Assembly: GCA_021845665.1 (NCBI GenBank) | Contig: JAJZVO010000029.1 | Location: 1 to 52,407 of the forward strand | Origin: Bacteroidota bacterium | Lineage (GTDB): Bacteria > Bacteroidota > Ignavibacteria > Kryptoniales > JAKASW01 | Direction: 5' to 3' | Length of the DNA stretch: 52,407 nt | Shown: positions 10,347 to 24,126 of the stretch, piece after piece | Numbering within the stretch: the first letter of the stretch is position 1 | Layout: every line of letters begins with the position of its first letter | Notes under the pieces: generated by a model | Told to the model about the DNA's origin: nothing | The model's database searches: none | The model's input: the letters and a program-made list of their open reading frames with translations, nothing else | Made by a program: the position numbers and the translations under genes

Positions 10347-12992
10347 ATGAGTAAAGGCGCATCTGCCACGCCGTTGATGATGCAGTATCGGAAGGTCAAA
10401 GACCGTTATCCCGACGCGGTAGTCCTTTTCAGAATGGGCGATTTCTATGAGACATTCGAAGGCGACGCGAAGATAGCGAGCAGTGTCCTTTCACTGACGC
10501 TGACAAGGCGTTCCAATGGCGGGGCGTCCGACGTGCCGCTTGCTGGTTTTCCCCATCATGCTATAAACCAGTACCTGCCGAAACTTGTCAAGGCCGGTTA
10601 TCGCGTGGCAGTTTGTGAGCAGCTCGAAGATCCGAAGCTTGCCAAAGGAATCGTCAAGCGCGATATTGTCGAGGTAGTCACACCGGGAGTAAATTTCTCC
10701 AACGAATCTGCGAAGACTAACAATTACTTTGCAACTTTAGTCTCCGACGGCCGGGAGTTCGGGCTCGCGTTTTGCGATGCGACAACCGGCGAGTTCGGTT
10801 TTGCCCAGGGAGAGCTTCCGGAAATCGATTCATACTTGACTAAAGTCGAGCCCCTGGAAGTCGTTCTTCCCCGCGAAATGTCCGAAGAGCTTGAGCCACT
10901 CATTCAACGGGCGCTGAAGAGGACCGTAATTACCAAACGCGACGACTACATCTTTAACTTCGACTACGCGTACGATAAGCTTATTCATCAGTTTAATGTT
11001 CAGAACCTTAAAGGGTTCGGGCTGGAATCGAGGGCGCTTGCCGTCCGCGCGGCGGGTGCCGCTCTCGACTATCTTTCTGAAACTCAGAACGGGAACCTCT
11101 CCCATATTGTGTCGGTGTTGGAGTTCAGCGTCTCAGGTTTCCTCGAGATCAACAGGACGAGTCGCATACATCTTGAAGTTGTGGAGTCGACATCCGACGG
11201 GGGCGCGACTCTTCTGAATACTTTGGATTTTACATCGACACCGATGGGTGCAAGGCTTCTCAGGCGTACGCTTTTGCAGCCGATGAAAGAAGTCGCCGCG
11301 ATAAATGCCAGGCTCGATTCCGTAGAGGAAGCGATTAAGAATAGTCTGACTTCGAATGAGTTAGGAAACCTATTTTCCGGTTTCGGTGATCTCGAGCGGC
11401 TCGTTGCAAGAGTTTCCACCAGACGCGCGAATCCGCGGGACATGGGATCCCTTCGCGCGATGCTCGAGAGACTTCCTGGGATGAAAGTACAGGCTGCGAA
11501 GCTACAGTCGCCCGAGTGGCGATCCGTCAACGCGGACATGAATCCCGAAGAAACCCTTCTCAAGCGACTAACTGAGTCCTTGGCAGACGACCTCCCGGTA
11601 CAGGCGTCTGAAGGCGGGGTCATAAGGAAAGGATATAATGCAGATCTCGACGAGCTCCGCGGACTCGCGTACAATGCCAAGGATTGGATCGCGCGGATGC
11701 AGGTGACTGAGCGCGAGCGGACAGGGATTTCTTCGCTCAAAGTAGATTACAACTCTGTCTTCGGCTATTACATCGAGGTCACCAAGTCGAACCTCTCGCG
11801 GGTGCCGGAAAACTATATCAGGAAACAGACTCTCGTCAACGCGGAGCGGTTCATTACCCAGGAACTGAAGGAGTACGAGGAGAAAGTCCTCCACGCCGAG
11901 GAGAGAATACAGAAGCTGGAGCTCCAGCTTTTCGAGGAGCTTCGAGATGAGGCATCCTGTCATGCTTCATCCCTGCTGGCGACGTCGCATGCGATCGCTC
12001 TCGCCGACATGTTGATGTCATTCGCGAAGGCCGCAAGGGAGAACGACTACGTCCGCCCGGTCGTCGACGAATCGCTCGATCTGGAAATAGAGTCAGGCCG
12101 TCACCCGGTTGTCGAGAAGGTCCTTCCGAGCGGCGAAACCTTTGTGCCGAACGATATAGCTTTGAAGGAAGGCGAGACTCAGATCGCGCTGATCACAGGT
12201 CCCAACATGGCAGGCAAAAGTGTTTACATACGGCAAGTGGCGGTGATAGTGCTCATGGCACAGGCAGGTTCATATGTGCCGGCGAAGCGTGCACGGATCG
12301 GTGTCATTGACAGGATTTTCACGAGGGTGGGTGCATCGGACAATATCAACGCCGGAGAAAGCACCTTTATGGTGGAGATGCAGGAAGCTGCCAACATACT
12401 GAACAACTCTACTACGAGGAGCCTTGTCCTGCTGGACGAAATCGGAAGAGGGACCAGCACGTTCGACGGCGTGTCCATCGCGTGGTCCATCGTGGAGTAT
12501 CTGCACCAAAATCCCGCCAGAGCTGCGCGCACCTTGTTTGCAACGCACTACCACGAGTTAAACGAACTTTCGGAATTATACCCGCGCGTTAAGAATCTGA
12601 AGGCAGATGTCAGGGAATACGGCGGCAAGGTAGTCTTTCTACACAAGATTGCGGAAGGGAGTGCCGACCATAGTTACGGGATCCATGTTGCGGAGATGGC
12701 TGGTCTTCCGAAAGCCGTGACATCGAGGGCGAAGGAGATACTGAGGAATCTTGAATCCTTTGAGCTTTCAGCTACCGAGTCGGCCGCAGCTGCGATGCAG
12801 ACGGCGGCAAAGATGCCGAGGCCGCGGAGAGTAGTCTCGAAGAACAGGGATGGCGATATGCAGATCGAGCTCTTCTCGCTGGGTGACGAAGAACTGCGAA
12901 AGAAAATCGAGGGCGTGGATCTGAACAATCTGACGCCCATTGAGGCTCTCAACAAGATTGCGGAATTCAAAAAGATCTTAGCTAAGGAGTAA
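10347..12992 (+). CDS. mutS: DNA mismatch repair protein MutS
   Basis: This 881-residue protein is full-length MutS, which recognises mismatches and small loops in DNA and recruits MutL. The mismatch-binding motif GDFYETF (Phe33, Glu35) is present. The connector, lever and clamp domains follow. The ATPase domain has Walker A GPNMAGKS (about 618-625), the ABC-type signature region DNINAGESTFMVEM, Walker B LLDEIGRGTST, and ATHYHEL. A C-terminal helix-turn-helix (NNLTPIEALNKIAEFKK) ends it. It is the first large gene of a close-packed same-strand run, and the HerA-like gene begins 2 bp after its stop. GGAAGTGA precedes the ATG. All key residues are intact, so it should be the functional repair MutS. 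Confidence 0.97.
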   Translation: MSKGASATPLMMQYRKVKDRYPDAVVLFRMGDFYETFEGDAKIASSVLSLTLTRRSNGGASDVPLAGFPHHAINQYLPKLVKAGYRVAVCEQLEDPKLAKGIVKRDIVEVVTPGVNFSNESAKTNNYFATLVSDGREFGLAFCDATTGEFGFAQGELPEIDSYLTKVEPLEVVLPREMSEELEPLIQRALKRTVITKRDDYIFNFDYAYDKLIHQFNVQNLKGFGLESRALAVRAAGAALDYLSETQNGNLSHIVSVLEFSVSGFLEINRTSRIHLEVVESTSDGGATLLNTLDFTSTPMGARLLRRTLLQPMKEVAAINARLDSVEEAIKNSLTSNELGNLFSGFGDLERLVARVSTRRANPRDMGSLRAMLERLPGMKVQAAKLQSPEWRSVNADMNPEETLLKRLTESLADDLPVQASEGGVIRKGYNADLDELRGLAYNAKDWIARMQVTERERTGISSLKVDYNSVFGYYIEVTKSNLSRVPENYIRKQTLVNAERFITQELKEYEEKVLHAEERIQKLELQLFEELRDEASCHASSLLATSHAIALADMLMSFAKAARENDYVRPVVDESLDLEIESGRHPVVEKVLPSGETFVPNDIALKEGETQIALITGPNMAGKSVYIRQVAVIVLMAQAGSYVPAKRARIGVIDRIFTRVGASDNINAGESTFMVEMQEAANILNNSTTRSLVLLDEIGRGTSTFDGVSIAWSIVEYLHQNPARAARTLFATHYHELNELSELYPRVKNLKADVREYGGKVVFLHKIAEGSADHSYGIHVAEMAGLPKAVTSRAKEILRNLESFELSATESAAAAMQTAAKMPRPRRVVSKNRDGDMQIELFSLGDEELRKKIEGVDLNNLTPIEALNKIAEFKKILAKE

Positions 12993-12994
12993 AA

Positions 12995-14515
12995 ATGGAA
13001 CCAACGGGTAAAGTCGTGTCGATTCACGGAGCAACCATTATCGGAGAGACAAATTCCGCGCAGACATTCAGTGTAGGATCCTATGTTTCCGTCCTACTGG
13101 AAGAGAGCAAACTTCTCGGGGTAATCTCGTCGCTCGAGCTCGCGGGAGATGACAAAATCCGGTTCACGGCCAACCTATTCGGAAAGTTCAGCGGGGGAAG
13201 GTATACTCGCGGGACAGAGGAACTTCCATACCCTGGCGCTCCTGTCGAGCTTCCGGAGGAAAGCGAACTCGACTTGATATTCAACACGCACAGGAGATAC
13301 GACTTCGCGCTGGGCGAGATTTCATTGCTGAAGGGAAAAAGGAATTACATGGACCCAGATAAGTTCTTCAGCAGGCATGTCTCCGTCGTCGGGGCTACCG
13401 GGTCGGGTAAGTCGTGTGCGGTCGCGACGATCCTTCAGAAGGTCGCCAAACTTCCCGGCGCCCGGATCATTCTTCTCGATTTGCACGACGAGTATGGCGA
13501 TGCATTCGGAGATCTTGCGGAGAAGGTTAACATAGGCGAGTTCGAGCTTCCGTATTGGGCAATGAACTTCGATGAGCTTGTGGAGACATTCGTTGACCCG
13601 GATGATCCCGCCGCGCGCAGTGAATCAGTCGTCATGTCTGAAATCCTTCTAAACAGCAAGCGGTCGAAGAACCCAGCATACAAGGACACGCTCACAATCG
13701 ATTCTCCGGTATATTTCGATTTGTCGGACATCAAAGTTAAGATGCAGGCTCTCGATACCGAGAGGCTCCCGAACGGAAAAGAAGGACCGTTTTACGGAAG
13801 TTTCACCAGATTCCTGTTCAAGTTCGACACGAAGGTCAACGACAAGAGGTTCGAATTTCTGTTTAAGCCGAAGAAGTTCAGGACGACCGAAACATTTTCG
13901 CAGTTCCTCGATCTCCTTTTCGGGTTGAAGTCGGGGAAATCGCTCGTCGTGCTCAACCTGAGCAACGTTCCACCTGAAGTCATCAACGCCATTGCCTCGC
14001 TTCTTTCCAGGCTCGTGTTCGATTTCAACATGTGGAACCAGTATCGCGCGAATCTTCCAATACTCCTTGTCCTCGAAGAGGCTCACAACTACCTTAACGT
14101 TAGAAGTTCATCGCAGACGGCGCGGCGGACGATTGAACGAGTCGTCAAAGAAGGTCGGAAGTACGGCGTCAGCGTCATGATAGTCAGCCAACGCCCGCTG
14201 GATATAGCCGAATCTATAATGTCACAATGCACCAACTTCGTGGTGATGCGCTTGTCTAATCCCGACGACCAATCATACATAGGAAAGCTTGTCCCGGAAT
14301 CGATGACCGATTTGCTGGAGGTCATACCTGCTCTCAAGCAGGGAGAAGCGCTGCTGCTCGGAGATGCATGCATACTTCCCCTCCGTACGAAGCTGGACGC
14401 TCCCGATCCGTTTCCGAAGAGCAAAGACGTTGACTTTTACACCAAGTGGAGCATCCTGCCTCCCGCTGTGGATCTCGATAACGTGGTTGAACGCTGGAGA
14501 AAGATCAGTTACTAA
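12995..14515 (+). CDS. HerA-like FtsK/HerA-superfamily ATPase
   Basis: This 506-residue protein has an N-terminal HAS-barrel-like domain (about 1-75) and a RecA-fold motor with Walker A GATGSGKS (about 133-140). A first acidic strand LLDLHDEYG and a second one VLEEAHNYL (near 360) follow, with the conserved VSQRP motif after them. HerA proteins form hexameric DNA-pumping motors, usually paired with the nuclease NurA. In some phage-defence systems they pair with SIR2 or DUF4297 proteins. None of these partners is next to it. AAGGAGT precedes the ATG. The gene starts 2 bp after mutS and its stop abuts the next ATG, so expression is shared with mutS. A role in DNA processing is likely, but the exact one is unknown. 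Confidence 0.88.
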   Translation: MEPTGKVVSIHGATIIGETNSAQTFSVGSYVSVLLEESKLLGVISSLELAGDDKIRFTANLFGKFSGGRYTRGTEELPYPGAPVELPEESELDLIFNTHRRYDFALGEISLLKGKRNYMDPDKFFSRHVSVVGATGSGKSCAVATILQKVAKLPGARIILLDLHDEYGDAFGDLAEKVNIGEFELPYWAMNFDELVETFVDPDDPAARSESVVMSEILLNSKRSKNPAYKDTLTIDSPVYFDLSDIKVKMQALDTERLPNGKEGPFYGSFTRFLFKFDTKVNDKRFEFLFKPKKFRTTETFSQFLDLLFGLKSGKSLVVLNLSNVPPEVINAIASLLSRLVFDFNMWNQYRANLPILLVLEEAHNYLNVRSSSQTARRTIERVVKEGRKYGVSVMIVSQRPLDIAESIMSQCTNFVVMRLSNPDDQSYIGKLVPESMTDLLEVIPALKQGEALLLGDACILPLRTKLDAPDPFPKSKDVDFYTKWSILPPAVDLDNVVERWRKISY

Positions 14516-15748
14516 ATGAACCAAAGACAATTGTTTCACGCAATCGAACATGTTGCGTCGAAGGATTACAGGTCGGACGAAGAGCTGCTGGAAAGTGTCG
14601 TCCGGGAGATAGCCAATTCTGACCAGATAAGGATAAAAGGGGGAAGGATCTGGAAACTGATTCCCCGTAAGAATGCTTATATACTCGTGCGGCAGCTCGG
14701 GAAAATGAAGCCTCTTGAAGAAAATTACGCGATCAAGGTTTCGGAATACCCGGATTTCGTGAGGATCGGCAATGAGAAGACACTGCTGACCCTCGAGAAA
14801 AATGCCGACCTCCGGAAGGGAGGGATCATGAAATATTCCGCGACGGGAGTCGGTGATAAGGTCAAGGTCAAGGGGATACCACTGTACCAGTATATTCTTT
14901 CCTTCAATACCGAGGAGGAAGATCAGGACCTGTTCGATACACTCAACGTCATCGGAAGCGCCGTGACTGCAGTGCTGCGTGGAAGGCATGCGCTCGCGCG
15001 TACGAGGCAGCTTGAACAGGACATGGACCAGGCACGTGAGATCCAGCGAAGCATATTGCCGGAGCATGAGCACAAGTACGGCGCCTTCCAGCTTTTCGGC
15101 GTGTCGCTCCCGGAGCGCGTCGTGGGAGGAGATTTCTTCGATTACATAACCGCCGGCGAAGAGGGCGAATGGCTCGGCGTGGCGGTAGGAGACGCAGCCA
15201 GCAAGGGACTTAGCGCCGCCGTGGAAGCTTTGTATGTATCCGGCGCCCTCAAGATGGGCGTCGAGCTCCAGACGAATATGTCTTCACTTGTCCGCAAGAT
15301 CAATAACCTGGTGAACTCCACCTTCTCCGATTCCCGATTCGTAACGCTCTTCTACGGTGAGTTCACCGACGAAAAGAGCGGGCTCTTTCTTTATGTGAAC
15401 GCGGGGCACAATCCTCCGATGTTCTTTCGCAAATCAACGGCGGAGGTCACGCAGTTGATTACCACGGGACCTGCACTCGGTATCGCGCCGAACGCTAAGT
15501 ACAGCATCGGAAACGTGAACTTCGAGAAGGACGACGTATTGCTGCTTTACACGGACGGAGTGTCTGAGGCGAGCGACAGCAACTTCAGTCTGTACGGTGA
15601 AGAAAAATTAAAGAAGAAACTCTCCGAAGTGGCGAGCCTCGAGCCGAAGCGCATATGTTATGAAATACTCGACTCTGTGCAGAGGTTCTCGGCGTCTTCA
15701 GCTTACGGAGACGACAAGACCATAGTCGTAATCAAAAGAATGGCATAG
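14516..15748 (+). CDS. SpoIIE/RsbU-type PP2C serine phosphatase with N-terminal sensor region
   Basis: This 410-residue protein ends in a complete PP2C-like phosphatase domain (about 165-410). The helical linker QAREIQRSILPE is typical of RsbU-like proteins, and the metal-binding Asp motifs GGDFFDY, VGDAASKG, LLYTDGVSEA and YGDDKT are all present. The first 165 residues look like a GAF-type sensor but show no clear ligand motif. Such phosphatases usually dephosphorylate anti-sigma-factor antagonists in partner-switching pathways. No anti-sigma kinase or STAS-domain antagonist gene lies nearby, so the target is not known. The ATG directly follows the HerA stop, implying coupling. Confidence 0.88.
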   Translation: MNQRQLFHAIEHVASKDYRSDEELLESVVREIANSDQIRIKGGRIWKLIPRKNAYILVRQLGKMKPLEENYAIKVSEYPDFVRIGNEKTLLTLEKNADLRKGGIMKYSATGVGDKVKVKGIPLYQYILSFNTEEEDQDLFDTLNVIGSAVTAVLRGRHALARTRQLEQDMDQAREIQRSILPEHEHKYGAFQLFGVSLPERVVGGDFFDYITAGEEGEWLGVAVGDAASKGLSAAVEALYVSGALKMGVELQTNMSSLVRKINNLVNSTFSDSRFVTLFYGEFTDEKSGLFLYVNAGHNPPMFFRKSTAEVTQLITTGPALGIAPNAKYSIGNVNFEKDDVLLLYTDGVSEASDSNFSLYGEEKLKKKLSEVASLEPKRICYEILDSVQRFSASSAYGDDKTIVVIKRMA

Positions 15749-15756
15749 GAGGTCCG

Positions 15757-17322
15757 ATGTCTGAAGAGACAGTTCGGATTCAAGATAGATATTCGAGCGG
15801 TGCTGTTGGAAGTGCACCCCGCGTCAAGCTTGTGAAGGCATTCTCTAACGCATTCAAGAACGTAATTGCCACTGCCCGCACGTGTTACTCTTCCAAAGGG
15901 ATCATCGAAGACGAAGCAGTTGAGGTGGAAAAGTATGCCGAGTTGGCAAAGAGTATCTACGATGCCGGTCACCACACTACTTTCCAGCACGCGTCGTTTC
16001 AGTTTCAACTTTCGAACGTATCCCGCCAGTTCCTCTGGTCTTTTCTCCACTCGCACCCGTTTTACAACTCGGAACAAGTCAGCCAACGATACGTGGAAGT
16101 CAAGGAGGGGAACTTCTTCGTCCCTCCGATTAAGGGCGAAGCCCTTGATATTTACCTGCAGGCTGTTGCGAGACAGCTCGATGCATACCGTCGTCTTGTG
16201 GATCTCTTAAAGAAGCCTGCGGCGCATGAATATCTTGTAAGGTTTCCACATAGAAAAGACGACAAACGCTTTTCCGGCGAGATAAAGAAAAAGGCGCAGG
16301 AGATCGGAAGATATGTATTGCCGGTGGCGACTTTTTCGTACTTGTATCATACCGTCAGCGGAATAACACTCCTTCGATACTCGAAAATGCAGAAGGCGGG
16401 CGATACCTCTTTTGAACAGCAGCAGGTAGTTGGGATGATGGTGGACGAGCTGCTGAAGTTTGATCCGAATTATAGAATTGTTCTTGAGGAGCCTCTTGAT
16501 GAGAGTCTGCTGGTAGAGAATGCTTACAGGAACGCAGGAGCGGGTTCGAAATTCATAGAAGAGTTCGACATGGACCTGGAGGGGCATACTTCAAGACTCG
16601 TCGATTACAAAATCAATTCTGAAAGAGTCGTCGCTGATGCCGTTAGGGAGGTACTGGGTATTACGGGCGGCGAGTTGGCGGACCAGGAAGCGATTAACCT
16701 TGCCATCAATCCAGCGAGGAACCGGGTGCTCGGGAATTCGCTCGTCCTGACAACTCACGACAAAATATCCCGTGCCTTGTTCCACGCCTCCTATACATTT
16801 AAGAAAAAGCTAAGCCATACAGCAGACTCTCAGGATCAGCGACACAGGATGACACCGGCGTCGAGACCCGTTATTGCGGAACAGATGGGGGATTCCCCAG
16901 ATTACATCATGCCTTCGCTTGTGAGGATGGAGCCCGAAGCGGAGGAACTTTACAAGGGGACAATGGATTTCACCTGGGACTCCATCAACAGACTCCTATC
17001 GGTCGGAGTGGATAAACAGTTCGCCGCGTATCTCCTGCCGAACGCGTTCCCGATTAGATTCACCGAGTCCGCGGATTTATTGAACCTGCATCACAAGATC
17101 GAGATGCGCCTTTGCTATAATGCCCAGGAGGAGATCTGGAGGGCATCTCTCGATGAAGTCGAGCAAATTAAGAATATCCATCCCGGACTCGGAAAGTTTC
17201 TTCTACCGCCATGCAGCATAAGACTTCTCGCGGGGACGAAGCCATATTGTCCGGAAGGCAAGCGTTACTGCGGCGTTCCAGTGTGGAAACTGGACACGTC
17301 AGAGTACGGCAGGACGATCTGA
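15757..17322 (+). CDS. Tandem ThyX-fold protein (FAD-dependent thymidylate synthase-like), non-canonical motif
   Basis: This 521-residue protein is about twice the usual ThyX length and looks like two ThyX-fold halves (about 20-260 and 285-515). The first half keeps the ThyX context GHHTTFQHASFQFQLSNVSR followed by SEQVSQRYVEV. Where ThyX has the RHR of its RHRxxSxNExSxRY signature, this protein reads HSH, and the motif is one residue longer. The second half has SRALFHASYTF and SQDQRHRM, also off-pattern. ThyX makes dTMP from dUMP with methylenetetrahydrofolate and FAD, and the RHR region binds FAD and dUMP. Activity here is therefore uncertain, and a changed substrate is possible. AGGAGGT precedes the ATG. 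The gene lies mid-operon between the phosphatase and the kinase. Confidence 0.78.
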   Translation: MSEETVRIQDRYSSGAVGSAPRVKLVKAFSNAFKNVIATARTCYSSKGIIEDEAVEVEKYAELAKSIYDAGHHTTFQHASFQFQLSNVSRQFLWSFLHSHPFYNSEQVSQRYVEVKEGNFFVPPIKGEALDIYLQAVARQLDAYRRLVDLLKKPAAHEYLVRFPHRKDDKRFSGEIKKKAQEIGRYVLPVATFSYLYHTVSGITLLRYSKMQKAGDTSFEQQQVVGMMVDELLKFDPNYRIVLEEPLDESLLVENAYRNAGAGSKFIEEFDMDLEGHTSRLVDYKINSERVVADAVREVLGITGGELADQEAINLAINPARNRVLGNSLVLTTHDKISRALFHASYTFKKKLSHTADSQDQRHRMTPASRPVIAEQMGDSPDYIMPSLVRMEPEAEELYKGTMDFTWDSINRLLSVGVDKQFAAYLLPNAFPIRFTESADLLNLHHKIEMRLCYNAQEEIWRASLDEVEQIKNIHPGLGKFLLPPCSIRLLAGTKPYCPEGKRYCGVPVWKLDTSEYGRTI

Positions 17323-17327
17323 ATGCA

Positions 17328-18992
17328 ATGTTGAGGGACCTCTATCTCATCTCTGTCTTTTTCGTGATGTTCGTAGTAACGGCCTATGCGTATTACCGTC
17401 ATAGGCGGGGCGGCTACACGGTGCTGCAGGGTTGGAATTTCATTCCTCTCGGATTGGCGCTTGTGACCGGGGGGATGGCGATGGAGGCCTTCCGTTCCCT
17501 AATCTTGCATTCAGGCGAAGGGAATGCGATGGAGAGTTTGCGTTCGCTAGTCATATATCCCGGCAAGTTGTCTCTCGCTTACCAAATCGTTCAGAACTAT
17601 GGAATGTTCTTACCCGGAATCGCGCTGGTCGGTTACGGCGTTGTTCGCGTTATCCCCTCCCTGGACGCATACATAGCCAGTCTTGCGGACAAGAAGATTG
17701 TCGAACAGAACAAGATTTTCACGAGACACCTTCTGAAGCTCCAGGAGAACAGTATGGTGCTTGCATCGCCGGGAAGCGTCCAGGACGTTCTTCAGAGAAT
17801 CGTTTCGAATGCGCAGGAAGTAACGGGGGCATATTTTTCGGCGCTATTGCTTTTCAATCCCCGGTCCGACACACTGGATTCGAGTTACTACGCAGGGAAT
17901 GGCAGGGAAGTTCTCCAGAAGCTAGTCGAAAGTATGGACATCGACCTGAGGAACATAGAACTCCCTCCGGAAAAGATAGATTTCCTGAGAAATATCGCCC
18001 GCGGAGGAAAACCGTACTTTGCTACCGACATTAGTGAGCTGTTGACTTTCTATGTCGGTGATCGCAAAGTGCCGTCATCGATCAAAGAATGGGATGTGCA
18101 AAGGTATGTGCTTGTTCCGCTGCATGTCGACGGTGTGCCTGACGGACTGTTATGTTACTTATTCAAATCGGCGGAATACTCGGGTGCACTCCTGGATCTG
18201 TTTGCGCACCAGTGCTCGCTCGCGCTCAGGAACGCCAAGCTGTTCGACGAGATGCAACAAAACACTATTGCCCTGGAAATACAAAGACGGAAAGCGGAGA
18301 ACGCAAACCGATCCAAAACAGAATTTCTCGCGAACATGAGCCATGAGCTGCGAACTCCATTGAACGCTATCATCGGATTCAGTGAAATACTCCAGACTGA
18401 TTTGACGGGACTGCCTCCCGATATGTCGCGAGAATTTATTGAGAACATTAACAAGAGCGGGAGACATCTCCTCGAACTCGTGAACGATTTACTCGATCTT
18501 TCGAGGCTTGAAATCGGAAGAATGAGACTTGAGAAATCGAATTTCGAGCTGGAAGAGGAGCTCCTACAGGCTGTGAAAATTGTGGAGCCGATGGGCCATG
18601 AAAAAGAGATTCACTTCGATATATCTGTCGGGGGGGCTATCTCAGAAGTTTATGCCGATCCTCAGAAGATCAGACAGATTGTGATCAATTTGCTGTCCAA
18701 TGCGGTGAAGTTCAGCCACCAGAATGGAACAATTAATCTGAAGGTCTGGCGAGATTCGAGTGCGCTTCATTTTTGCGTCGAAGATTTTGGGATGGGCATA
18801 AAGAGAGAGGATATAGACAGGCTCTTCACACCTTTTGAACAGTTGACACAGAATCCCTATGCCAAGAAATACCGCGGCGTCGGACTCGGCCTTGCTTTGA
18901 CGCGGAGGCTGGTTGAACTGCACGGCGGGAGGGTGTGGGCCGAAAGCGAACTTGGAAAGGGTTCGAAGTTCTATTTCACATTGCCGCAATAA
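17328..18992 (+). CDS. Membrane-anchored hybrid-less sensor histidine kinase with GAF domain
   Basis: This 554-residue protein has three or so N-terminal membrane segments (about 5-22, 34-50 and 88-112), a short coiled coil, a GAF-type sensor domain (about 150-300), a HisKA domain with MSHELRTPLNAIIGF (phospho-acceptor His near 338), and an ATPase domain. The ATPase boxes are NLLSNAVKFS (N box), VEDFGMGI (G1) and GVGLGLALTRRLVELHGG (G2). It should sense a signal and pass phosphate to a response regulator, but none is encoded nearby. ATG 17328 follows the ThyX-like stop by 5 bp. An upstream in-frame extension would run through that gene and is rejected. Its stop overlaps the helicase ATG by one base. 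Confidence 0.9.
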   Translation: MLRDLYLISVFFVMFVVTAYAYYRHRRGGYTVLQGWNFIPLGLALVTGGMAMEAFRSLILHSGEGNAMESLRSLVIYPGKLSLAYQIVQNYGMFLPGIALVGYGVVRVIPSLDAYIASLADKKIVEQNKIFTRHLLKLQENSMVLASPGSVQDVLQRIVSNAQEVTGAYFSALLLFNPRSDTLDSSYYAGNGREVLQKLVESMDIDLRNIELPPEKIDFLRNIARGGKPYFATDISELLTFYVGDRKVPSSIKEWDVQRYVLVPLHVDGVPDGLLCYLFKSAEYSGALLDLFAHQCSLALRNAKLFDEMQQNTIALEIQRRKAENANRSKTEFLANMSHELRTPLNAIIGFSEILQTDLTGLPPDMSREFIENINKSGRHLLELVNDLLDLSRLEIGRMRLEKSNFELEEELLQAVKIVEPMGHEKEIHFDISVGGAISEVYADPQKIRQIVINLLSNAVKFSHQNGTINLKVWRDSSALHFCVEDFGMGIKREDIDRLFTPFEQLTQNPYAKKYRGVGLGLALTRRLVELHGGRVWAESELGKGSKFYFTLPQ

Positions 18993-20977
18993 TGGAATCA
19001 AAGAAATACACGATTAAGAAGAGCGTCGTCGGCGAAGCCGAGCGGCGTGTGTTTAAAATAGATTACGAGCGCGATCTTAACGCCGACCAGCTCGAGGTTG
19101 TCAGGACCGTCGACAGCCCGGTACTGGTCATCGCAGGTGCAGGAACAGGCAAGACCAAGACGCTTATTTACCGCGTCGCCTACCTTGTGGAACTCGGCGG
19201 AAATCCGAGGTCGATCCTCCTGCTGACATTCACCAGAAAAGCCGCCGACGAGATGTTGAAGCGAGCCGCATCGCTGCTGAAGTCGGCTTCCGCCGAACAG
19301 GTCGCCGGCGGGACATTCCATTCGTTCGCAAACATGACACTTCGCCAGTACGCAAAGATCCTTGGTTACGGTGAGCAGTTCACGATCCTTGACGATTCTG
19401 ACGCTGCAGACGTAGTGAACCTTCTGAGAACCAGGCTGCGACCCGAAAAGAAATCGCAGAGGTTCCCGAAGAAAGAGACACTCATCGATTTGTACAGCAA
19501 GTCTGAAAATACACTCACCCCGATCGAGGAAATAGTCTTCAAAGAGTACCCGCGTTTCATAGAAGAAATCGAGGATATCCTCAAACTGAAACGACAGTTC
19601 GATGAATACAAGAGGAAGTACAACCTGATGGACTACGACGATCTCCTTAAAAATCTCAAGGAGCTTCTTTCGCAAAACGAGCAGATCAGGAAAACTGTCG
19701 CGGGGAGATTCAGCTACGTGATGGTCGACGAGTTCCAGGACACTAACAAAGCGCAGGGAGAAATTGTCAGGCTGCTCGGCACGGATAAAGAGAACGTAAT
19801 GGTTGTAGGAGACGACGCGCAGAGTATCTACTCCTTTCGGGGGGCACACTTCCGGAACATTTTTGATTTTCAAAACTATTTTCCGAACTGCAAGATCATC
19901 AAGCTGACTGAGAACTATCGTTCCACGCAAGGCATTTTAAATTTCACGAACAAGGTCATCGAGGCTGCGAAGGACAAGTTCGAGAAAGAGCTGTATTCGA
20001 GGAAGAAGGCAGGGGATAAGCCGGCAGTCGTCGCCGCGGAGACCGAGAACGTGCAATCGAAGTTTGTGGTACAGCGCATACTCGAGCTCCGCGAGGCAGG
20101 CATTACCTTGAACGATATCGCCGTGCTGTTCCGGTCGTCGTATCTTTCATTCGACCTGGAGATCGAGCTGACGCGTGCCAACATCCCATACGTGAAGTTC
20201 GGCGGAATGAAACTCGTGGACGCGGCGCACATAAAGGACATAATCTCGTTCTTGCGGGTGATAGAAAATCCCCAGGACGCCGTCGGATGGCACAGGATAC
20301 TTCTCCTTCATCCGGGTGTGGGGCCGAGAATGGCGGAGAGAGTACTCGACAACTTGACGAGACAGGGAACTCAGGACAACCCCGCTCTGGAGGAATCGGA
20401 GGGGAAGATACCTCCTAGTGCGGAGGAACTGATCGGCTTCATTTCTGAAGAAGGGAGAAGGAATGGACAGCCGGTAGAGTATGTAGAGTCGGTGCTCAGG
20501 TATTATCAGCCGCTGATGCAGAGCAAATACGACGACTACTCGAAGCGTCAGAAGGATCTGGAGATGTTTGCGTCTATCGCAGAGAGGTATAAATCACTGC
20601 AGAGCTTCCTTTCCGACCTGGCATTGGAGCCACCTACTGAAAGCGTAGTGGACCTCGGTGAAAAGGACAAAAAGGAAGAACAGATCACGATTTCCACTAT
20701 TCATTCTGCGAAGGGGCTGGAGTGGAATAGTGTCTTCGTGATCTGGGCACTTGACGGAAAGTTTCCGTCGATGTACGCGACGGACGACGACGATGCCATC
20801 GAGGAAGAGCGTAGATTGATGTACGTGGCCTGTACGCGCGCGAAGGACAATCTCTACATAACCTATCCGATGAATACTTACGACCGTGAGAGCGGTAGAA
20901 TATTTACCAAGCCCAGCAGGTTCATCGACGTGGTGCCGCAGGACTTTTATGAGAAATGGAACCTCGTTTTTGAGTAG
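18992..20977 (+). CDS. UvrD/PcrA/Rep-family superfamily 1A DNA helicase
   Basis: This 661-residue helicase begins with a short lead and then DLNADQLEVVRT (Q motif), Walker A GAGTGKTKT (about 48-56), motif Ia TFTRKAADEM, motif II VDEFQDTN, motif III GDDAQSIYSFRGA, motif IV TENYRST, motif V TIHSAKGLEW and motif VI EERRLMYVACTRAK. Proteins of this class unwind DNA 3' to 5' in excision repair and replication restart. The set is complete, so it should be active. Family members are usually 650-750 residues, and this one is slightly short at the C-terminus. ATG 18992 overlaps the kinase stop with no ribosome-binding site of its own, so translation is coupled. With MutS and HerA it gives the operon a DNA-maintenance character. 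Confidence 0.94.
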   Translation: MESKKYTIKKSVVGEAERRVFKIDYERDLNADQLEVVRTVDSPVLVIAGAGTGKTKTLIYRVAYLVELGGNPRSILLLTFTRKAADEMLKRAASLLKSASAEQVAGGTFHSFANMTLRQYAKILGYGEQFTILDDSDAADVVNLLRTRLRPEKKSQRFPKKETLIDLYSKSENTLTPIEEIVFKEYPRFIEEIEDILKLKRQFDEYKRKYNLMDYDDLLKNLKELLSQNEQIRKTVAGRFSYVMVDEFQDTNKAQGEIVRLLGTDKENVMVVGDDAQSIYSFRGAHFRNIFDFQNYFPNCKIIKLTENYRSTQGILNFTNKVIEAAKDKFEKELYSRKKAGDKPAVVAAETENVQSKFVVQRILELREAGITLNDIAVLFRSSYLSFDLEIELTRANIPYVKFGGMKLVDAAHIKDIISFLRVIENPQDAVGWHRILLLHPGVGPRMAERVLDNLTRQGTQDNPALEESEGKIPPSAEELIGFISEEGRRNGQPVEYVESVLRYYQPLMQSKYDDYSKRQKDLEMFASIAERYKSLQSFLSDLALEPPTESVVDLGEKDKKEEQITISTIHSAKGLEWNSVFVIWALDGKFPSMYATDDDDAIEEERRLMYVACTRAKDNLYITYPMNTYDRESGRIFTKPSRFIDVVPQDFYEKWNLVFE

Positions 20978-21024: not shown

Positions 21025-23817
21025 TCATTTCATTAGTACCATTTTCCCTGATGAGACGAAGCGGCTTCCGTCGCTTCCCGCCGCAGTAACGGAGTAGATG
21101 TATACCCCACTCGCGAACATATCCATGCTGACAGTTTCCCGGTAACTGCCGGGTTCCAGCAGACCGAACTTTTTTTCGAGTACCCTTTGACCGAGGACAT
21201 TGTACACCTCGAGTGTAACCTTGCTCGCGACGGGAATCTGGTAGGCAATCATTGTGGTGGGGTTGAAAGGGTTAGGGAAGTTCTGCGACAGTTTGTAGGA
21301 CTCCAGCCTTGCTGTGGGGGAAAGCCTCACGCCGGTTAAAATCGAAGCGGTTACCACTGAGATACTGTTAGACGTAGCTGTGGTATCGGCTCCGTTAGTA
21401 ACGTATCCCGTTAGTGTGTACATGCTCGAAGCCTGGACGTTTCCAACGGAAAAAGTCGAAGAGGTTTCTGAACTAGTGAAAATCGTGTCCACCCCTGGCC
21501 CAAAGAAGTGGAGCAGGTAAGCAAGCGTTTTGCCATTTGGATCTGTGGCCGTGCTCCATGTTACCGATACTTTCTGATCGAAGTGAGCGATGCTGTCTGC
21601 GGGTAGTGCATTGAACTTGAACGTGGAGGGGGCGGAAATGGTGTCGCCCCCAATCGGCTCACCGTATAAAACGCCGCGTCCTTCTGCCGAGATGTAACAC
21701 CTTCCATACACCCGGGGATCGCCCGAGATCTGGTGAAGATAGCCGAACTGATGGGAATCGTCATTGATTCTCGTCCATGATGCACCGGAGTCAATGGAAA
21801 GAAACATTCCCAATTTTCCACCTACAATTCCCCAGAGATATATCGCAGGGTAAGTCTTTGCCGGAGCAGATTGTCCGAAGCCAAGAAGGAATGCGGCGGT
21901 CACGTTTGTGACCTTCGATGCGGTATTGCCCGAGTCAATGGAGTGAAAAAGTCCGCCTCCGCCGCAGCAGATCCAGACGTCTCCATCATGACCGGGTGTT
22001 GCGCTCAAATTACCGTCCTGAGATTGGTAACCTGGTACTGAGGGTAAACCGGTGATGGTGCGGGAGAACGTTTTCGCCGCGTCTGTCGATACCCAGAGCT
22101 GGCCGTACGATGCCAGATAAGCATAAAACTTCCCCGGGTCCACCATATCCGCTATCGGAGGTACTGCCGGTACACTGCCGCCGCACGCAGTCCACGTGTT
22201 TCCGAAGTCTGTCGAATATGATAGTGCGGAGCCTGTAGGCGCCCAGACGATGGTTCTTCCGTCAGCCGAGATCGCTATTGACCACGTCCCGCCCGCAGTC
22301 GCGCCTCTTGGGCGTTTCGGAAAGTCTCGCCATGAACTTCCTCCATCTTTGGAATATGCACCATACGGCGCCGCATTATATGCCTTCACTATCGTGGAAG
22401 GGACCTTTGAGGCAAAGGCAAGCGAAAGCGTCGTGCCCTTCGGTGGATTGTATCTCCCCTGGGGAGGGGATGTATTGAGCTGGTCATTCCTGAATCCATC
22501 ATAGTCGCCCATCGCCGACACGACGTTTGTGAATGGTGGACTTATGATTTGCATCGGCACTGTTTCTTCAAGGTTCTCGTCTTTGAAATACCATGTAGGC
22601 GTGGTTGCGAACAGGTTATCGCACGCCCAAATGCCGAATCCGGTTCCGAACATAGCCTTGCTGGAATCGAACGGATCCATCGCAATGCACGCCAGCCAAT
22701 GGGGATTAACCGTAGATGTGTAAGGCGCGTAGCTGTGATCAAGCGAGGCACCGATCAGCCTGCCGCGCCAGGTCGAGCCGCCATCGGGACTCAGGTAAAC
22801 TTCGTCCATCGGAGACCATTTGTCTAGCGTACTGACGATAAGAATCCTCGGATCCTTCGGATAAACTGAGAGGCCGCTGAAGCCGTAAGAGCCGGAGGAA
22901 GGGGAGATGTTTGTCCAGCTTCTGGCCGATATGTTGTATCGCCAGACCGATCCGGACGTGGCGCCGTTCGGGCCCTGATAATTAGCAAATGTCAGGTAGA
23001 GTACGGTATCTGCGATGGCACCTCGGATTGCCATAACATTGGTTGGTTGGCCCTGCACGGTGTCCCATGTTATGCCGCCGTCGGTGGTCTGGTAAAGACT
23101 TTGACCGGACGTGTTGGCGGCGGCGACGAAGATCCTCTTACTGGGCATACTCAAGGATCCGCTTGTCGGATCGATTTTCACGAAATTCACGTTGGTAGGA
23201 GTGAACGATGTGACCGCGTTCCAAGTCGCTCCGTAGTCTGTGGATCTCCACAAAGCAGATTGGGCAGGGCTTGTCGCCGGATTCGAAGAGGTTCCCATGA
23301 AGAGTATGGAATCGGCATTCGGATCTACCTGCAAACGCTCGCCGCATCCGCGTCCATCTTCGTTTCCGCCGACTTTAAACTTGAGTGGAATTATCTTCCA
23401 GCTGTTGCCTTTGTCGGTAGAAGAAAGGAGTGCACCGTTTCCAGCCCATGACTGCGTATACTTGCCCGTTTCCATGTATACGCGGTTCGTATCGTTTGGG
23501 TCGAGTGCGATGGAGAATATCCCCATGAAGTCTGAGTTGTTTCTGTCCATAGTATCTGTCAGTGGTGTCCATCGGCCGACCGAGTTCTCCCATCTGTATG
23601 CTCCTCCCATATCGGTTCTCGCATATGCCAGACCTTGGGCGGTTGGGCTGTATATGATTCCCGGCACGAATCCACCGCCTCCGTCAATCACGCTCCGCCA
23701 TTGATAGGATATCTCCTGAGCCTTCGTCGATAGGGCGAAGACAAAGGAGAATGTGAACAGTTCAAAGACAGCGACTGCGGCATGTGCAGACGAAAAAAAT
23801 CGATCTTCAACTTTCAT
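21025..23817 (-). CDS. Secreted GH74 xyloglucanase with T9SS sorting domain
   Basis: This 930-residue enzyme has a signal peptide (about 1-34) and a GH74 double seven-bladed propeller (about 37-740). Its repeats carry the TDGG/TDYG..W Asp-box pattern. The family start GGGGFVPGIIYSP..LAYARTDMGGAYRW holds one expected catalytic Asp (Asp69), and AMGDYDGFRND near residue 435 holds the second. GH74 enzymes cut the glucan backbone of xyloglucan. An FN3-like domain (about 745-840) and a T9SS type A tail (QNFPNPFNPTT, about 845-930) follow. ATG at 23817 is chosen because GGAGGA precedes it and it opens the signal peptide. An upstream open stretch to 23952 is probably untranslated. It shares its T9SS route with the GH5-like enzyme at 1555-3810. 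Confidence 0.93.
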   Translation of the reverse strand: MKVEDRFFSSAHAAVAVFELFTFSFVFALSTKAQEISYQWRSVIDGGGGFVPGIIYSPTAQGLAYARTDMGGAYRWENSVGRWTPLTDTMDRNNSDFMGIFSIALDPNDTNRVYMETGKYTQSWAGNGALLSSTDKGNSWKIIPLKFKVGGNEDGRGCGERLQVDPNADSILFMGTSSNPATSPAQSALWRSTDYGATWNAVTSFTPTNVNFVKIDPTSGSLSMPSKRIFVAAANTSGQSLYQTTDGGITWDTVQGQPTNVMAIRGAIADTVLYLTFANYQGPNGATSGSVWRYNISARSWTNISPSSGSYGFSGLSVYPKDPRILIVSTLDKWSPMDEVYLSPDGGSTWRGRLIGASLDHSYAPYTSTVNPHWLACIAMDPFDSSKAMFGTGFGIWACDNLFATTPTWYFKDENLEETVPMQIISPPFTNVVSAMGDYDGFRNDQLNTSPPQGRYNPPKGTTLSLAFASKVPSTIVKAYNAAPYGAYSKDGGSSWRDFPKRPRGATAGGTWSIAISADGRTIVWAPTGSALSYSTDFGNTWTACGGSVPAVPPIADMVDPGKFYAYLASYGQLWVSTDAAKTFSRTITGLPSVPGYQSQDGNLSATPGHDGDVWICCGGGGLFHSIDSGNTASKVTNVTAAFLLGFGQSAPAKTYPAIYLWGIVGGKLGMFLSIDSGASWTRINDDSHQFGYLHQISGDPRVYGRCYISAEGRGVLYGEPIGGDTISAPSTFKFNALPADSIAHFDQKVSVTWSTATDPNGKTLAYLLHFFGPGVDTIFTSSETSSTFSVGNVQASSMYTLTGYVTNGADTTATSNSISVVTASILTGVRLSPTARLESYKLSQNFPNPFNPTTMIAYQIPVASKVTLEVYNVLGQRVLEKKFGLLEPGSYRETVSMDMFASGVYIYSVTAAGSDGSRFVSSGKMVLMK

Positions 23818-24126
23818 TGAAATCCTCCGTTCTCCGGTAGTTGGACAGGTCTGGTCTGACTTAACACGAAAGATTTCTCTCGGATTTGTCCGCGGCTTTC
23901 CGTTGGTACGGATGATCTCTGCTGTCTTCAAGCCCTGGACCTGACATAACACTACATCTGCTTAGTCAAATAAAACGCGGTAACCCCTGCCGGTACGAAC
24001 ATGCTATCGCCGGCGTTATCGCTAACACGACTTCGAAAAGCTAACTGATGGTTGGTGCATTGTCAAGTCTTGGTATGTCCGTGAACGCACGGCGCCGACT
24101 TCGCGACAGCTTGTCCTGCGATCGGA
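23818..24126. other. Intergenic region upstream of the xyloglucanase gene
   Basis: No gene is supported here. The stretch lies between the 5' end of the minus-strand xyloglucanase gene and the stop of the minus-strand DMT transporter gene. It contains a candidate minus-strand promoter (24038-24066) and, close downstream of it, CGCCGGCG (24008-24015) flanked by ATCGC repeats, which could be an operator. No terminator hairpin with a T-run is obvious. Confidence 0.5.
24038..24066 (-). promoter_or_regulatory. Candidate promoter of the xyloglucanase gene
   Basis: Read on the minus strand, TTGACA (24066-24061) and TAGCTT (24043-24038) are 17 bp apart. The -35 element is a perfect consensus. The leader would be about 210 bases long, so a nearer start, such as the weaker TTGACT with 15-bp spacing around 23960, cannot be excluded. 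Confidence 0.4.

Follow-up and report, generated by a model that had tools for sequence, protein, structure and literature searches.

Does a ThyX-like protein of double length, in which the RHR signature of the first half has been altered, still make thymidylate, or has it turned to another reaction? This question is raised by one gene in the window, i.e., the whole stretch of 52,407 nucleotides that was analysed. Thymidylate synthase is an essential enzyme, and its ThyX form is a target for drugs. A preliminary description of the gene had regarded it as a fusion of two ThyX-like halves and had proposed that the changed signature serves a new chemistry or a new substrate.

Fold and genomic setting of the double-length protein

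The protein is encoded by a single open frame on the + strand, with the following parts.

15757 to 17322, + strand: double-length ThyX gene, 521 aa in one frame (TIGR02170, 91.2 bits, curated cut-off 87.9)
15805 to 16512, + strand: half 1, residues 17–252, predicted complete ThyX fold with the putative dUMP-side role (VIA-align to 3hzg_A)
16573 to 17319, + strand: half 2, residues 273–521, predicted complete ThyX fold with the putative FAD-side role (VIA-align to 1o26_C)

The frame is far beyond chance, since it is kept at 52–93% identity in at least 80 other genomes, and the earlier guess that this form occurs elsewhere is thereby borne out. Pfam Thy1 (PF02511) matches two stretches of the protein, with an E value of 5e-53 for the whole. 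The score of 180.2 bits, against a curated cut-off of 24.8, places it in the ThyX superfamily, and in the genome search each half separately exceeds this cut-off.

We have predicted the structure with AlphaFold2 (59 sequences; mean pLDDT 89.6, pTM 0.87) and compared the halves with solved ThyX structures by VIA-align. Half 1 (17–252) superposes on M. tuberculosis (Mtb) ThyX 3hzg_A with a Z score of 14.0 (3.3 Å, 210 residues), and half 2 (273–517) on T. maritima (Tm) ThyX 1o26_C, which contains FAD and dUMP, with a Z score of 13.6 (2.5 Å, 200 residues), while the first unrelated structure in the list reaches a Z score of only 3.4. In the model, then, both halves are complete ThyX folds, as the preliminary description had supposed.

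The immediate neighbours of the gene are as follows.

14516 to 15748, + strand: SpoIIE/PP2C-type phosphatase gene, upstream, 8-nt gap; also a neighbour in genomes G007, G018 and G065
17328 to 18992, + strand: histidine kinase gene, downstream, likely start ATG 17328; also a neighbour in G065 and G018

More widely, genes for MutS, a HerA-like ATPase, the SpoIIE phosphatase, the double ThyX, the histidine kinase and a UvrD-type helicase lie head to tail over 10347–20977, and the gaps between the first five (2, 0, 8 and 5 bases) are operon-like. Beyond them, 21025–23952 on the − strand encodes a 975-aa protein with a sortilin/VPS10-like stretch and, by eye, a C-terminal sorting-type tail (NFPNPFNPTTMIAYQIP...) as in secreted proteins of the Bacteroidota group.

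Active-site residues and their division between the halves

According to a review of crystal structures (PMC6514825), each active site of M. tuberculosis ThyX is built from three subunits: subunit A gives RHR 95–97 and R199, subunit C gives R87, S105, R107 and the lid Y108, and subunit B gives S71 and R190. We have examined the corresponding positions of the double ThyX, judging invariance in an alignment of 59 related sequences. The sites that matter are listed below.

16024 to 16026, + strand: R90, counterpart of Mtb R87, which contacts dUMP (role from PMC6514825); invariant in 59
16048 to 16056, + strand: H98-S99-H100 where RHR is expected, the vacated FAD side of half 1; H98 and H100 invariant in 59
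16072 to 16092, + strand: E106-Q-V-S109-Q-R111-Y112, dUMP loop and lid tyrosine; invariant in 59
16309 to 16311, + strand: R185, counterpart of Tm R147 and Mtb R172; invariant in 59, with A, S, L and others in half 2
16828 to 16848, + strand: S358-Q359-D-Q-R362-H363-R364, intact RHR and the counterpart of Tm Q75; Q359, R362, H363 and R364 invariant in 59
17107 to 17109, + strand: R451, counterpart of Tm R174 and Mtb R199, a dUMP contact; invariant in 59, with C, A or Q in half 1

In half 1, the invariant R90, S109, R111, Y112 and R185 represent the role of subunit C together with the counterpart of Tm R147. The positions of the A role read H, S/A/Q, H and mostly C/A/Q, that is, RHR is lost. 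As described earlier, HSH stands in its place, with one extra residue between it and the conserved EQVSQRY. In the predicted model, HSH comes after the end of helix 90–97, much as helix 354–363 ends with the RHR of half 2. In half 2, the invariant Q359, R362, H363, R364 and R451 represent the A role, and the residues of the C role are lost, including S-x-R-Y and the conserved R of 'RxxLP'. The second half had also been called deviant for its SQDQRHRM, but this string contains an intact R362-H363-R364 and can be matched residue by residue, with no gap, to T. maritima RQWFRHRI (Q75-W-F-R78-H79-R80). The deviation of half 2 consists in its missing S-x-R-Y and RxxLP arginine.

The contiguous canonical motif RHR-X7/8-S(x)RY is therefore not found within either fold, and its parts have to be collected from both, half 1 supplying S-x-R-Y together with the arginine of RxxLP and half 2 supplying RHR together with the R199 counterpart. 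Because half 1 keeps the C role and half 2 keeps the A role, each without the other, the two halves are, judged from their residues, complementary, with one site complete and its mirror-image site vacated. One complete canonical site is retained, since what is missing in half 1 is present in half 2 and the reverse. The view of the preliminary description that selection rather than decay has kept the protein is supported; its proposal of new chemistry or substrate is not, given that the residues missing in one half are present in the other.

The arginine that binds the FAD phosphate (Mtb R190) is absent from both halves of the type I doubles in the 59-sequence alignment. In these proteins the FAD phosphate would have to be held otherwise, with R207 or K447 as candidates. 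As the divergent doubles keep S71 and R190, the subunit-B residues, mostly in half 1, the third contributor to the site seems to be a half 1 too. In addition, the C-terminal part of half 2 has four invariant cysteines, C453 (17113–17115) and C486, C498 and C505 (17212–17274, + strand), in a 'CPEG..YCG' context; C486..C498-PEG..C505-G together with C453 may form a metal site.

Overall, we consider it probable (about 0.87) that the double ThyX is a working FAD-dependent thymidylate synthase, its activity being predicted, in which two ThyX subunits have been fused and have become complementary and half degenerate. An ordinary ThyX consists of four identical chains that form four active sites. To each of these, chain A contributes RHR and an arginine, chain C the S-x-R-Y loop and more arginines, and chain B the contacts to phosphate. 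In the fusion, half 2 would take the role of chain A for FAD and half 1 that of chain C for dUMP; half 2 would bind FAD through its RHR and close on the dUMP held by a half 1, either of the same chain or of the partner chain. Two fused chains would then assemble into one pseudo-heterotetramer with two complete and two vacated sites. The expected catalysis is the normal ThyX reaction, in which the methylene group would pass from CH2-H4folate via reduced FAD to dUMP.

It might be argued that all four sites still work and that half 1 uses its HSH for a different mode of FAD binding; the invariance of H98, H100, R207 and D216 in half 1 and of H354 and R370 in half 2 of the type I doubles would speak for this. 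However, the vacated site has lost both of its sides: half 1 is without the counterparts of RHR and R199, and half 2 without those of S-x-R-Y and R172. In the divergent doubles, this place shows no HSH and no common substitute for it. We thus regard four working sites as very improbable.

Thymidylate synthesis in genomes with the double form

In the own genome of the double ThyX, no match to ThyA (PF00303) was obtained by a search that was positive in 9 control genomes, and no second ThyX and no DHFR were found. A dUTPase is present, and so is a thymidine kinase, hence salvage is possible. The preliminary description had named clear thymidylate synthase activity in a genome with no other thymidylate synthase as the combination that would contradict its proposal, and the genomic half of this combination, neither thyA nor another thyX, is what we have observed.

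Among 197 genomes of the class, 34 carry a double of the window's type and 3 a divergent form. ThyA was detected in none of these 37 and in 42 other genomes of the class (Fisher test, p 8e-5, a value that ignores relatedness and is illustrative only). Across 50 named genomes with the double, weak partial ThyA-like matches appear in only one, and a second, broken Thy1 in one; a second ThyX is almost always absent from genomes with doubles. The comparison genomes are mostly drafts from metagenomes. The double ThyX is the sole candidate for a thymidylate synthase in its own genome and in nearly all the others that carry a double.

In G058, G173, G180, G191 and G227, all of which carry a canonical or double ThyX, open frames of ~300 codons match ThyA weakly and over a part only (E 1e-7 to 1e-10). 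Such weak PF00303 matches, seen in G227 and some genomes of the class and covering only about positions 94–222, were rejected as ThyA, the same kind being found in genomes with canonical ThyX; they are perhaps another family with the ThyA fold.

A genome of the same genus (G018) is rated 100% complete and is also without ThyA. The HerA-like, SpoIIE and histidine-kinase genes follow one another there as in the window, but the double ThyX is missing from among them and has left no significant remnant. Instead, a canonical ThyX (309-codon open frame) is found on another contig. Here one ThyX form has replaced the other.

These observations bear on two further explanations. According to the first, the altered signature reflects new chemistry or a new substrate, e.g., the methylation of a different nucleotide, as by PolB in the synthesis of polyoxin. 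Paralogs of ThyX with changed substrate do exist (PolB, PMC5954106), and half 1, taken alone, has HSH for RHR, with H98 and H100 invariant. PolB, however, is an extra paralog and not a sole enzyme, while the double is the sole candidate in its own genome and in nearly all others with doubles, has been exchanged for canonical ThyX in G018, and has all the residues that read the base and phosphate of dUMP, once. We judge this explanation to be very improbable.

The second holds that the protein is a decaying or regulatory pseudo-enzyme and that thymidine comes from salvage or from an undetected synthase. The thymidine kinase would fit this, and an atypical ThyX of Corynebacterium glutamicum is, by the title of PDB entries 3fnn/3ge9, dispensable for thymidylate synthesis. 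On the other hand, the pocket residues are invariant over many phyla, the protein is the sole candidate in dozens of genomes, and the genus member that lacks the gene has canonical ThyX instead; we consider a pseudo-enzyme very improbable. In our opinion the reading as a working thymidylate synthase is carried by the computed results, namely two ThyX folds, complementary and invariant residues, no other thymidylate synthase, and a natural replacement by canonical ThyX.

Other double-length ThyX proteins and comparison with known systems

Doubles of the window's type occur in the 50 named genomes from Bacteroidota, Acidobacteria, Nitrospirota, Planctomycetes, Verrucomicrobia, Sumerlaeota, Myxococcales and others; no protein of this type was found in IMG/VR. 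Further double-length ThyX proteins have been found in Thermomicrobium roseum (43% identity), the Microcystis phages LMM01 and Mvi-JY20, a gut phage contig, a Bacillus licheniformis plasmid, one IMG/VR contig, two genomes of the same phylum and three of the same class. Throughout this set, S-x-R-Y without RHR characterises half 1, and RHR without S-x-R-Y characterises half 2, where the Bacillus licheniformis plasmid protein reads RHNR.

As the halves aligned weakly with a profile of Bacteroidota-type canonical ThyX, the residues were counted in a mixed alignment with Tm, Mtb, clostridial and viral single proteins, the Tm and Mtb sequences being verified against PDB entries. The polarity of the split is identical in 22 of 22 diverse doubles. 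The dUMP-side (C-role) residues are kept at 88/88 positions in half 1 and 1/88 in half 2, and the FAD-side (A-role) residues at 87/88 in half 2 and 17/88 in half 1. Actually, 13 of these 17 are the third residue of HSH or HHH, which falls on the H96 column. Single ThyX proteins (n=11) keep 44/44 of both residue sets.

In a tree of the halves, all half 2s lie on one side of a branch (81/91) and the half 1s need one extra change; AU tests give p values of 0.20–0.50 for all arrangements and reject neither a single fusion nor separate fusions. It is conceivable, though we think it unlikely, that all bacterial and phage doubles descend from one ancient fusion that divided the two reciprocal sites of a homodimer for good, and also that the vacated sites of type I (invariant H98, H100, R207, D216; H354, R370) have become a regulatory or second-ligand pocket absent from canonical ThyX.

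Several single cases were noted besides. The proteins L118, L119 and L120 (from G044, G034 and G014) are much more divergent doubles; the second half of L119 is undetected by Pfam Thy1, its model from 4 sequences only (pLDDT 38) is useless, and no other thymidylate synthase was detected in these three genomes. L141, on the gut phage contig MT835736.1, is a compact double with the CPEG cysteine motif and may stand midway between the clostridial single proteins and the doubles of bacteria. In G112, three Thy1 stretches are spread over two contigs, and we read them as one double split by assembly.

These results suggest that a four-site homotetramer can become a two-site division of labour, alike in very different lineages. 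The double ThyX is a natural test of why ThyX is tetrameric and of how asymmetric pseudo-oligomers evolve. In practice, a motif search for ThyX in one stretch would miss it, and thymidine auxotrophy does not follow from a genome's having neither ThyA nor a contiguous RHR..S motif.

Proteins of this kind are named FAD-dependent thymidylate synthase in databases. Valas and Bourne in 2009 (PMC3224940) mentioned a ThyX 'domain duplication' in Chloroflexi that 'has not been characterized', and the open literature searched, which excludes subscription journals, gave no description of the complementary split. The protein they meant is probably WP_012643046.1 of Thermomicrobium roseum, a species now placed in Thermomicrobiota. 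It is 43% identical over 94% of the length, with the same split and the same C-terminal cysteine motif, but has HHH for HSH and is encoded on a megaplasmid. The thymidylate synthase YP_851034.1 (491 aa) of Microcystis phage LMM01 is also of double length, with 'QERSTRY' in half 1 and 'NRHR' in half 2, and its predicted structure is the best full-length BFVD match to our model, but it is only ~16% identical by structure alignment and has neither HSH nor the C-terminal cysteine motif.

Clostridial-type single ThyX proteins (C. difficile WP_121959915.1, Geoalkalibacter WP_052465129.1) share GISR..SQRY with half 1 and CPEG..CG with half 2, but have one domain with a complete contiguous motif; the cysteine motif is common to this type and absent from Tm and Mtb ThyX. 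Compared with canonical homotetrameric ThyX/FDTS (T. maritima TM0449, M. tuberculosis 3gwc/3hzg), each half has the same fold, and the residue sets of the dUMP and RHR parts are complete, once over, but the double has two folds per chain, RHR and S-x-R-Y on different halves, no R190 counterpart, and HSH in the vacated place. Because it belongs to the superfamily by its scores and does not have the contiguous canonical motif, we have filed it as a split-site variant of ThyX.
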